Shown here one piece after another: positions 50,328-62,052 of a stretch of DNA of 64,000 nt. The position numbers were made by a program, and so were the translations under genes. The notes under the pieces are model-generated. The model saw nothing but the letters and a program-made list of their open reading frames with translations, made no database searches and was not told where the DNA came from. The number at the start of each line of letters is the position of its first letter. The stretch's first letter is position 1. The DNA comes from Desulfovibrio gilichinskyi (GTDB lineage: Bacteria > Desulfobacterota > Desulfovibrionia > Desulfovibrionales > Desulfovibrionaceae): NCBI RefSeq assembly GCF_900177375.1, contig NZ_FWZU01000006.1:62001-126000 (forward strand), given 5' to 3'.

Positions 50328-50402
<75 letters not shown>

Positions 50403-50406
50403 AAGC

Positions 50407-50481
50407 TGGAGGCGACATCCGGATTTGAACCGGAGAATGGAGGTTTTGCAGACCTCTGCCTTACCGCTTGGCTATGTCGCC
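50407..50481 (-). tRNA. tRNA-Cys (anticodon GCA)
   Basis: A 75-base cloverleaf with encoded CCA. The acceptor GGCGACA pairs with TGTCGCC, the anticodon loop CTGCAAA presents GCA, and GGTTCAAATCC is the T arm. Only four bases separate it from the following tRNA-Gly, so the transcripts are processed from one precursor. Confidence 0.97.
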
Positions 50482-50495
50482 TAAGAAAAAAAAGA

Positions 50496-50570
50496 TGGAG
50501 CGGGAAACGAGATTTGAACTCGCGACTTCAACCTTGGCAAGGTTACACTCTACCGCTGAGTTATTCCCGC
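50496..50570 (-). tRNA. tRNA-Gly (anticodon GCC), first copy
   Basis: A 75-base cloverleaf with encoded CCA, first in the transcript. It has the same acceptor and GCC anticodon as the other Gly copy. Fourteen bases, mostly A/T on either strand, separate it from tRNA-Cys. Confidence 0.97.
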
Positions 50571-59325: not shown

Positions 59326-60279
59326 TTACTCAGGACCGAAAGTGGAACGGATTCTATCCAGTTGATCAGCAACTTCATATATAGTCCGGGCATATACCAT
59401 TGAGTGATTGTAGCGGTAGATAACTTTTAGTTTTTTATCTTTGCTGAGCGAGTTTTTCCAGCCATGCCTTTTAAAAAAATTAGCCATACTTTCCAGTGCA
59501 TCGGCCTTATCAAACAAATCGATTCGCCCATTCATGTCACCGTCAACAGCATAACTGAGGGCTGTAGTCGGCATAAACTGGCAAATGCCAAAAGCACCGT
59601 AAGGTGACCCCGGTATTTCAGACGGATTAATCGAGTTGGCAGACGAAAATTTTAAAAGTGCTGACAATTCTTTATAAGCCCAGTCTGCCTTCTGCTTAGT
59701 TCTTTTTCTAAGCCATTCCATATCTGCGGGACTAAGTTCAGCAGAATCTAAATCTTTTAAAAAAGCCGCAGGATCCGGGCTGGCTGCCATATTCGCAAGA
59801 TTACAAAACGCCGGAGAAGTTCCTAGTGTATGGCCGAGCTTTGTTTCAACAAGTAACAAAGCAACTAATATAGACGGAGAAACATCATATTTTTTGTCTA
59901 TTTTAGTAAGAATTTCATAATGTTCACGTAAATATGAATATGCACCTGCTAACAGGATTGCTCCAACATATCTTTCATCAAACTCTTTCTCACGGGCAAC
60001 TTTTTCAGCAGGTGGTTCGAACCTGCGCTGAAGCAGCACTTTCATCTTCCGGACCATCATTTCAGGATCATACTTAACAGAACTGACAGAAAAAACAGTT
60101 TCAATATATTCTCTGCTAAATCCGTCAGTAACGAGTCTATCCTTCAAGGGGGACCATGCTTCATGCGGATCAGTTGAATTTGCAACAGGTGTTGCAGCAA
60201 AACCGCAAACTGCAGTGCTAATTACAAGCAGAAAACAGAGAACCGAGATCGTCACAAGACTTTTAAATTTAGAAGTCAT
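59326..60279 (-). CDS. Lytic murein transglycosylase, MltB/SLT_2-like
   Basis: A 317-residue secreted enzyme with a signal peptide of about 28 residues (FKSLVTISVLCFLLVISTAV, then GFA). It lacks a standard lipobox, so it may be soluble in the periplasm rather than a lipoprotein. The SLT_2 fold is shown by LVALLLVETKLGHTLGTSPA with the catalytic Glu, SPYGAFGICQFMPTTALSYA, and the EF-hand-like loop GDMNGRIDLFDKADALES. GAGG precedes the ATG. It begins nine bases after the stop of the short selenoprotein gene and is probably cotranscribed with it. Confidence 0.93.
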   Translation of the reverse strand: MTSKFKSLVTISVLCFLLVISTAVCGFAATPVANSTDPHEAWSPLKDRLVTDGFSREYIETVFSVSSVKYDPEMMVRKMKVLLQRRFEPPAEKVAREKEFDERYVGAILLAGAYSYLREHYEILTKIDKKYDVSPSILVALLLVETKLGHTLGTSPAFCNLANMAASPDPAAFLKDLDSAELSPADMEWLRKRTKQKADWAYKELSALLKFSSANSINPSEIPGSPYGAFGICQFMPTTALSYAVDGDMNGRIDLFDKADALESMANFFKRHGWKNSLSKDKKLKVIYRYNHSMVYARTIYEVADQLDRIRSTFGPE

Positions 60280-60288
60280 AATTCCTCA

Positions 60289-60519
60289 TTATAATCTATT
60301 CATCGAAACATTAGCCATTTCTTCTTCAAAATCATCATCGATATACTTCGCGTATTCCGCAACTTCATACTGTTTGCCGCAAGACCTGCAGCACAAATAA
60401 ACACCTGTTCAGCTGCGCAGAGAATACACTTCTCCCCCGCAAACTTTACAAGACATACCCGGCTTTGCAGCTTTATTAAAGCCTCTAAAGCTGGATGAAA
60501 GCTTTCGCCCGCCGCTCAT
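60289..60519 (-). CDS. Small dual-CxxC protein with in-frame UGA, predicted selenoprotein
   Basis: A 76-residue protein if the TGA at 60409-60411 (codon 37) is read as selenocysteine; otherwise only 36 residues. The TGA lies between two CxxC pairs: C24-x2-C27 (SCKVCGG) and C44-x2-C47 (CCRSCGK), so Sec37 would be at the centre of a zinc-ribbon-like module. The same frame continues without further stops to TAA. The start ATG has AGGGGGA about six bases upstream. Directly after TGA is a SECIS-like hairpin. I recall a family called dual CxxC motif small (seleno)protein in sulfate-reducer genomes, but could not search. It lies between a TolC-gene terminator and the transglycosylase gene. Function is unknown; a redox or metal-binding role is inferred. 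Confidence 0.8.
60371..60411 (-). promoter_or_regulatory. SECIS-like hairpin downstream of the in-frame UGA
   Basis: On the minus strand, starting 19 bases after the UGA, GCUGCA pairs with UGCGGC (one G-U) around the apical loop GGUCU. A lower UGUUU/AAACA stem with an AUUUGU bulge extends it. The loop sequence is the same as that recalled for the E. coli fdhF SECIS bound by SelB, and the spacing from the UGA is within the bacterial range. Confidence 0.75.
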
Positions 60520-60576
60520 AATTCCCCCTGTGTTACTACTGTGTGAAACCGAACATAGACGGCTTGACCATAACAA

Positions 60577-60608
60577 AAAAGCCGGGTTCCTTAAAGGAAC
60601 CCGGCTTT
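60577..60608. terminator. Bidirectional terminator after the TolC-family gene
   Basis: The stem AAAAGCCGGGTTCCTT (60577-60592) pairs with AAGGAACCCGGCTTTT (60593-60608, abutting within the A-rich centre). Runs of A and T flank it on both sides. Confidence 0.9.
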
Positions 60609-60627
60609 TAAATAATATTTTATCTAC

Positions 60628-62052
60628 TTAACTTGTCTTAAGCGAAGGGTTTTTAACACCCATTGCAACAAACAGTCTTGCAAGTGCAACCTGATAATCC
60701 GACAAAGCTTCAATCAGCTGTGCTTCACTGGCACTGAGTCTTGACTGAGCATTAAGAACATCGTTGTTTGTACTGACTTGAGCCTGATAGCGGGCCATCT
60801 CCATTCTGTATCCTTCACGTCCGGATTCAACAGACTTACGACCAACCCTGATTCTATCCGCTGCGGCCTTAAGACTCAAAAGCTGATCTTTAATTTCATA
60901 AGAAGCTTCAAGTCTAGTATTATCATAATCGGCCTTAATTTTATCTACAGTCTCTTTAGACTTCTGAACATCATAATATGTTTCGCCCCAGTTAAAGAAA
61001 TTCCAGTTAACATTAGCACCGACATCCCATGAATCGGGACGATTTTTATAATTATACCTATTTGTACTTACGGAAGGATCACCACCGGCACTGTTATAAT
61101 TAAAGTCAGCGGTGAGTTTAGGGTAAAAAGAACTTTCAGAGATTGTTACATCTTCTTCTGAAATCTTAACAGCTTTCATGGCAATACGCAGATCAGGACG
61201 ATCCTTGTCAGCTCTCACAATGCACTGTTCCAAAGTCATTGAGAAAGGCAGATAAGTAAGTTCTCCGGTGTAATCAACCTTTTTATCAAGTGGAAGGTTA
61301 AGTAATGTATTCAATCTGGCAGTCTTTGAAGCAACAGAGTTGTTTGCTTTAAGAAGAGACTGTTCGGCCGTGGCAAGTTCAACTTCAGCCTGCAGAACAT
61401 CTGCTCTTGGTCTAAGACCGACCTGATAAAAAGCCTGAATAACACCTAACTGAGATTGAAGTCTGGCAACTGAATCCTGATTACTTTTTACTTCCATCCG
61501 TCCTTGCAGCAATGTCAAAAAGGCTTCCTGAATATTTCTGATCAAAACAAGTTCAGCATTATAAAGCTGAGCATCACTCTGATCTCTTTGAAGCTTGGTT
61601 TTCTGATATTTTGAAAGAAGTTCAAATCCCATGAAAATAGGCTGACTGACATTAATTCCAAGTCCCCATTGGTCCTGATATGCGGAAGGAGTAGAACCGG
61701 ATCTGGGCTGATCGCTTGAGTGTGTATAACCATAGCTCATCGACATTCCGGCTCCGAACTGACCGCGCTGTGACTTAACACTGCTTTCGGAAGCCATAAG
61801 CTGTTTGCGTGCAGCAATAATGGTAGGGTTCTGATTAAGACCCATCTCAACGCACTCTTCAAGAGAAAGAGTTAAGTCGGCACTCTTTTCAGCAGCCACA
61901 GCCTGCGGGACTTGAGTTGTCGCCTGCTCCATTGAAACAGGAGCCTCAGCCTCCCCAAGTTTGCTTTCACCCGGAAGCTGCTGAGCAAAAGCAGATGTAA
62001 CTGCTGCAAGTAAGAAAAATAATGTAAAGAAAACTGATCTGTTGCGTTTCAT
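60628..62052 (-). CDS. TolC-family outer-membrane efflux protein
   Basis: A 474-residue protein with a signal peptide of about 24 residues ending AFA before QQLPG. Two repeats of the outer membrane efflux protein fold are visible, with LSLEECVEMGLNQNPTIIAA beginning the first and LEQCIVRADKDRPDLRIAMK the second; the long coiled-coil helices are rich in Ala, Gln and Leu. It would form the outer-membrane channel of an efflux pump or type I secretion system. No membrane-fusion or pump gene is adjacent, and the RND fragment at the start of the window is too far to be the evident partner. Confidence 0.9.
   Translation of the reverse strand: MKRNRSVFFTLFFLLAAVTSAFAQQLPGESKLGEAEAPVSMEQATTQVPQAVAAEKSADLTLSLEECVEMGLNQNPTIIAARKQLMASESSVKSQRGQFGAGMSMSYGYTHSSDQPRSGSTPSAYQDQWGLGINVSQPIFMGFELLSKYQKTKLQRDQSDAQLYNAELVLIRNIQEAFLTLLQGRMEVKSNQDSVARLQSQLGVIQAFYQVGLRPRADVLQAEVELATAEQSLLKANNSVASKTARLNTLLNLPLDKKVDYTGELTYLPFSMTLEQCIVRADKDRPDLRIAMKAVKISEEDVTISESSFYPKLTADFNYNSAGGDPSVSTNRYNYKNRPDSWDVGANVNWNFFNWGETYYDVQKSKETVDKIKADYDNTRLEASYEIKDQLLSLKAAADRIRVGRKSVESGREGYRMEMARYQAQVSTNNDVLNAQSRLSASEAQLIEALSDYQVALARLFVAMGVKNPSLKTS

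Follow-up and report, generated by a model that had tools for sequence, protein, structure and literature searches.

A short reading frame on the minus strand of the window, the whole stretch of 64,000 nucleotides of Desulfovibrio gilichinskyi DNA analyzed here, raises the question of whether its single in-frame TGA ends a fragment or encodes selenocysteine (Sec). The gene, the exchange between Sec and Cys among its relatives, a SECIS-like hairpin, and the Sec machinery of the genome are all computed from the DNA; that UGA codon 37 is read as Sec, and that this is hence a selenoprotein gene, can be inferred with a probability of roughly 0.93. The features of the gene are as follows.

60289..60519, minus strand: selenoprotein coding sequence, 76 residues and stop TAA, U at residue 37 (translation with TGA as U; NF041197 match)
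60409..60411, minus strand: in-frame TGA, the Sec codon (translation; aligned codon TGA or TGC/TGT in homologues)
60439..60450, minus strand: codons of C24xxC27, first putative metal-ligand pair (translation; homologues)
60379..60390, minus strand: codons of C44xxC47, second putative metal-ligand pair (translation; motif part of the locating pattern)
60524..60529, minus strand: AGGGGG, ribosome-binding-site-like, 5-10 bases 5′ of the ATG

Translation of 60289-60519 on the minus strand with TGA as U gives MSGGRKLSSSFRGFNKAAKPGMSCKVCGGEVYSLRSUTGVYLCCRSCGKQYEVAEYAKYIDDDFEEEMANVSMNRL*. The preliminary description had claimed a 76-residue frame with one TGA between the two CxxC motifs, an acidic C-terminal part after read-through, a good ribosome-binding site, and a 36-codon fragment if Sec is disregarded, and all of this is borne out by the translation and by the AGGGGG before the start. 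Under the standard code, the frame at this locus comprises 55 amino acids from a TTG or 36 codons from the ATG. As read by eye, 16 of the 17 same-genus loci (the window's own included) have a purine-rich stretch 5′ of a start codon that lies 33-36 codons upstream of the U/C codon, the exception being G002. No signal peptide is visible in the sequence of the selenoprotein, so the product is probably cytoplasmic.

The protein belongs to a family already on record, of which the window gene is an additional member. It matches the NCBIfam model NF041197, “dual CXXC motif small (seleno)protein” (CxxC_Se_CxxC; OS_HP3), with 76.7 bits against a cut-off of 40 (E 1.1e-21), and its residues 24-76 align with positions 1-53 of the 53 in the profile. 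Two CxxC motifs with U between them are common to the family and the window protein; the model does not cover the first 23 residues, and no feature excludes membership. No Pfam family exceeds its cut-off for this protein. The family is listed as “hypothetical protein OS_HP3” with the motif RxU, here R35-S36-U37, in the accessible parts of a 2026 review (PMC13188914), which credit it to Zhang and Gladyshev 2007; it also appears in the consulted part of a 2022 review (PMC9312934), and the available portion of the deep-Sep paper (PMC12013277) reports that its own method missed OS_HP3 in Desulfosarcina widdelii. No function is stated for NF041197/OS_HP3 in those parts of the three papers. The family is therefore not new, and the earlier claim that the gene is hidden and would be missed stands for annotation without a Sec model but not otherwise, because the NCBIfam model and the reviews of selenoproteomes cover it.

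Homologues offer a direct view of the residue at the site. Matches to the NF041197 family (E ≤ 0.001) were found in 78 of 98 genomes, namely, the window's own and its relatives. The pattern used to locate the site, which demanded U or C ahead of the second CxxC, was satisfied by 79 of 80 matches; the remaining one (G034:C2, E 9.6e-4) has neither U nor C at the site, was judged spurious, and was left out of all counts, while the other match in G034 was counted. Among the resulting 79 genes, which come from 78 genomes, the codon at the site is TGA in 50, TGC in 23, and TGT in 6, so that Sec (50/79) and Cys (29/79) account for every gene. The 50 TGA genes fall in 49 genomes, and none of the 98 genomes holds both forms. 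Homologues ending at the site, which the preliminary description regarded as contrary to its reading, were not encountered: all 78 complete genes extend 39 or 40 residues counted from the U/C position to the C-terminus, 40 in 75 of them.

Five columns, C24, U/C37, C44, C47, and R75, are invariant among the 63 members (of 77 distinct ones) that were aligned. The residue two before U/C is Arg in 74 of 79 genes, Lys in 3, and His in 2; the penultimate residue is Arg in all 78 complete genes, and the final one is L, I, V, M, or F in 76 of them. The first Cys pair is CxxC in 72/79, CxC in 1/79, and CxH in 6/79, a variation that would be expected of metal ligands. Over the 39 codons 3′ of the TGA, dN and dS are 0.03 and 0.22 against the nearest relative and 0.08 and 0.60 against the next, and in four further pairs dS over these codons was saturated or not computable; the codons after the TGA thus look selected. 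The 17 same-genus loci comprise 14 Sec and 3 Cys forms. On the tree, at least 13 Sec/Cys changes are required, compared with 23.9 when the labels are shuffled; the well-supported branches force only 2 changes, and 45 of 74 inner branches are open.

In bacteria, the SECIS is a hairpin directly downstream of the UGA with a G in its apical loop. The window gene contains such an element, with a G in the loop and beginning 16 bases after the TGA. The preliminary description did not mention this SECIS-like hairpin, which is specific to the Sec forms.

60376..60392, minus strand: SECIS hairpin, 6-bp stem GCUGCA/UGCGGC, loop GGUCU, covering the C44xxC47 codons

Across 47 distinct Sec sites, pairing holds for 97.2% of stem cells, 17 cells have changed on both sides, and the covariation score is 0.369; each of these three values was reached by 0 of 500 shuffles, although kinship among the sequences can beat shuffles by itself. 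The number of pairs changed on both sides (2, equalled by 441/500 shuffles) and the number of further pair types (9, equalled by 19/500) are not outstanding in the Sec sites. The 29 Cys sites have 71.8% of stem cells paired, and no measure rises above shuffles in them. RNAalifold recovers the hairpin in the Sec sites with 7 pairs and predicts no common structure for the 29 Cys sites, while GG occurs in the loop region of 44/47 Sec sites versus 11/29 Cys sites.

Synonymous-codon shuffling of individual genes gives a more mixed picture. The number of stem pairs is ordinary in the window gene (p 0.21), because the Cys codons pair anyway; it attains p<0.05 in just one of the 50 Sec genes and in none of the 29 Cys genes. 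The folding energy of the window gene is low (p 0.04), and folding energy stands out in 23 of 50 Sec genes and 2 of 29 Cys genes. A covariance model built on the Sec sites scores the window site, which is part of the model, at 51.9 bits; the next match has 14.3 bits (E 0.12). Among Sec-type loci outside the model, L168 and L169 score 41.0 and 43.1 bits; two further Sec-type relatives in the phylum with a TGA, L155 and L163, score 16.7 and 12.6 bits. The hairpins of selD and of three formate dehydrogenase-type genes are not found at E up to 1, which means that the model describes this family and not SECIS elements generally. Elsewhere in the window's own genome, a formate dehydrogenase-like gene (L150) has a hairpin with the identical GGUCU loop, and selD and two formate dehydrogenases have hairpins with other loops.

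The hairpin spans all four codons of C44xxC47, so that bases there belong both to the insertion signal and to the putative second metal knuckle. In 45 of 47 Sec sites and 7 of 29 Cys sites, the first Cys of this pair is followed by R, G, or K (p 5e-11, an optimistic value given the kinship among the sequences), and TGC encodes both Cys residues in 44 of 47 versus 18 of 29. Eight of the 29 Cys-form loci were scored with the covariance model. One of them, from a genome of the same genus (G011; L043, 7073-7120, minus strand), retains 6 of 6 stem pairs and a loop with GG and reaches 40.8 bits; the other seven have at most 24.8 bits or are not listed. The hairpin of L043 looks like a SECIS remnant, which would point to an apparently recent change from Sec to Cys. 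SECIS remnants have been reported in other families, according to the consulted part of PMC1794560. Neither the overlap of SECIS and second CxxC with its restricted sequence nor the near-intact SECIS of at least one Cys form is met in the accessible portions of the OS_HP3 literature.

The preliminary description made its reading dependent on a Sec machinery in the genome. This is complete, with tRNA-Sec, SelA, SelB, and SelD encoded at three separate places.

own genome, C1:586312-586401: tRNA-Sec (80.1 bits)
own genome, C1:1017146-1021834: selB with selA, about 1.4 kb apart (SelB 386, SelA 601.9 bits)
own genome, C2:36409-37326: selD, with its own internal TGA (SelD 328.4 bits)

Across the 98 genomes, tRNA-Sec was regarded as present at 73 bits or more, a threshold set by reading the score list, and 90 genomes reach it. 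The family's own cut-off is passed by 93 genomes but also by 5 of 14 controls, for which reason the stricter value was adopted; three of the eight genomes counted as lacking tRNA-Sec (G023, G050, and G072) have 47-48 bits, just over the family cut-off. tRNA-Sec scores 73 bits or more in each of the 49 genomes with a Sec form, whereas the eight genomes counted as lacking it comprise no Sec form, two Cys forms, and six genomes with no match to the family. SelB over its cut-off was not found in one Sec-form genome, G092, which is 53% complete.

These results bear on the other explanations of the TGA. A plain stop at this position was considered and rejected on account of the recurrence in 49 genomes, the selection after the TGA, and the hairpin. 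A single base substitution would turn TGC or TGT into this codon, and 29 of the 79 genes are of the Cys form, so that a nonsense mutation or a sequencing error may be imagined to have broken a Cys gene and left a 36-residue fragment. The preliminary description argued against such a simple nonsense mutation, and rightly so: the same TGA is present in 50 genes of 49 genomes, the codons after it look selected, and the hairpin is specific to the TGA forms, which leaves this explanation hardly credible. An equally far-fetched proposal, with nothing specific in its favor, is that the organism reads UGA as another residue such as Trp; Cys is the sole alternative in 79 genes, and the genome holds the Sec set together with members of other known selenoprotein families, selD and formate dehydrogenase, that contain an internal TGA.

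It is well known that the recoding of UGA competes with termination. On this basis, UGA could serve mainly as a stop, giving mostly a 36-residue peptide with one CxxC, while the long form would be a minor product set by the selenium supply. The start, the ribosome-binding site, and the first CxxC all precede the UGA, which speaks for this arrangement. However, four of the five invariant columns (U/C37, C44, C47, and R75) lie at or after the UGA, and the Cys forms possess the long frame only; this alternative is consequently regarded as improbable, if somewhat less so than the two above. The preferred reading is that of a gene whose codon 37 specifies Sec.

What the product may look like is suggested by remote resemblances. 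Profile matches are mostly to zinc-binding proteins (YfgJ, HypA, LysW, and small subunits of RNA polymerase), the best with E 2.9e-5 and most above 0.01. Zinc ribbons occur, for instance, in the small subunits of RNA polymerase, in topoisomerase I, and in YfgJ, HypA, and LysW. The structure model from three sequences has a mean pLDDT of 63.7 and strands at 30-36 and 39-44, and that from a single sequence is poor (mean pLDDT 58.0). Two Cys/His pairs are found around a beta-hairpin, which is seen only in the moderate-confidence model. Fold comparison (Foldseek, VIA) gives weak matches to RNA polymerase II chain I, topoisomerase I, and aspartate transcarbamoylase chains, with a best Z of 4.4; the matched chains are taken here to be zinc domains. 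The selenoprotein thus resembles zinc ribbons in its two Cys pairs around a modeled beta-hairpin and has weak sequence and fold matches to them; on the other side, Foldseek returns no match with E ≤ 0.001, and zinc proteins of other kinds as well as unrelated chains appear among the matches. A zinc ribbon is a likely fold on these grounds.

The following mechanism can be proposed for the selenoprotein. UGA codon 37 would be decoded by SelB and tRNA-Sec, aided by the SECIS hairpin over the codons of the second CxxC, to yield a small, probably cytoplasmic product. Its two Cys pairs would probably hold one zinc in a zinc-ribbon-like fold, and the selenol of U37, two residues after the near-invariant R35, would sit at the turn of the beta-hairpin between the metal knuckles. 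There, U37 may act as an exposed redox-active group that undergoes thiol/selenol exchange and can be replaced by Cys; the odds that the selenol at the hairpin turn has a redox role are put at about even. A bolder and rather doubtful reading regards the protein as a redox-switched zinc ribbon, a small regulator or adaptor that would act through the selenol at the hairpin tip beside the near-invariant Arg and would dock on a partner by means of its C-terminal tail, whose length is fixed and whose last two residues are Arg and a hydrophobic one. On the same doubtful reading, the Sec signal would dictate the residues of the second zinc knuckle, over which the SECIS lies, as C-[RGK]-x-C, so that the choice between Sec and Cys would constrain the metal site.

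The genes around the selenoprotein gene provide little further indication of its role. Its neighbors on the same strand are listed below.

59326..60279, minus strand: transglycosylase, Pfam SLT_2, downstream neighbor; ATG 9 bases after the selenoprotein TAA
60577..60609, minus strand: terminator-like hairpin between the TolC-type and selenoprotein genes, 15 pairs, T-rich tail (consensus scan)
60628..62052, minus strand: outer-membrane efflux protein, Pfam OEP, TolC-like, upstream neighbor

The SLT_2 gene is perhaps co-transcribed with the selenoprotein gene. The consensus scan for terminators found 4 sites versus 1.6 expected, and an Rfam search of the whole window at gathering thresholds gave only three tRNAs, in a row, at 50331-50570 (minus strand). 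The TolC-type gene, the selenoprotein gene, and the SLT_2 gene (59326-62052, minus strand) occur together in all 17 same-genus loci. Over all 79 loci, the next gene on the same strand is of the SLT_2 type downstream in 21 and of the TolC type upstream in 24, both counts being lower bounds because contig ends cut loci and a blastp threshold of 1e-8 was applied. Outside the genus, the neighbors mostly differ and include, for example, HDOD, polyA polymerase, PurT, epimerase, and GNAT genes (Pfam scans of 20 chosen neighbors). An assignment of function from the neighborhood of the 79 loci was accordingly set aside, the arrangement being read as local synteny with neighbors that vary outside the genus; a functional link of the selenoprotein to the transglycosylase is conceivable.

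The family is widespread in the phylum, and its Sec-requiring members are cut short by annotation that lacks a Sec model. A wider sample of the phylum has matches in 112 of 395 genomes, 88 of them over the cut-off. Within the genus, 14 Sec forms stand beside 3 Cys forms, one of the latter with a near-intact SECIS behind its Cys codon; such close relatives are well suited to studying the contribution of Sec and the way in which a SECIS constrains a protein. One Cys-form branch of the wider sample (L164-L167 and L170, match from base 1001) is distinguished by its end: 5 of 5 proteins terminate in IYD rather than in Arg plus a hydrophobic residue.

The same sample contains a second type of small protein, found at loci L151, L153, L154, L156-L159, and L162 (match start or end near base 1001 of each). 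These proteins share with the present family two CxxC motifs with U between them, but they have a GxU instead of an RxU motif, a different C-terminal part, and NF041197 matches below the cut-off; several of the genomes also hold a match above it. The site at L151 is not among the matches listed for the Sec-site covariance model. The GxU type may deserve a separate model. It may correspond to the “hypothetical protein DW” described in papers of 2025 and 2026, an identification that follows the GxU label and is doubtful, given that, in the accessible parts of the reviews, SMF39960.1 is OS_HP3 in 2022 and DW in 2026. Two further proteins, at L152 and L161, look like Cys forms of the GxU type.
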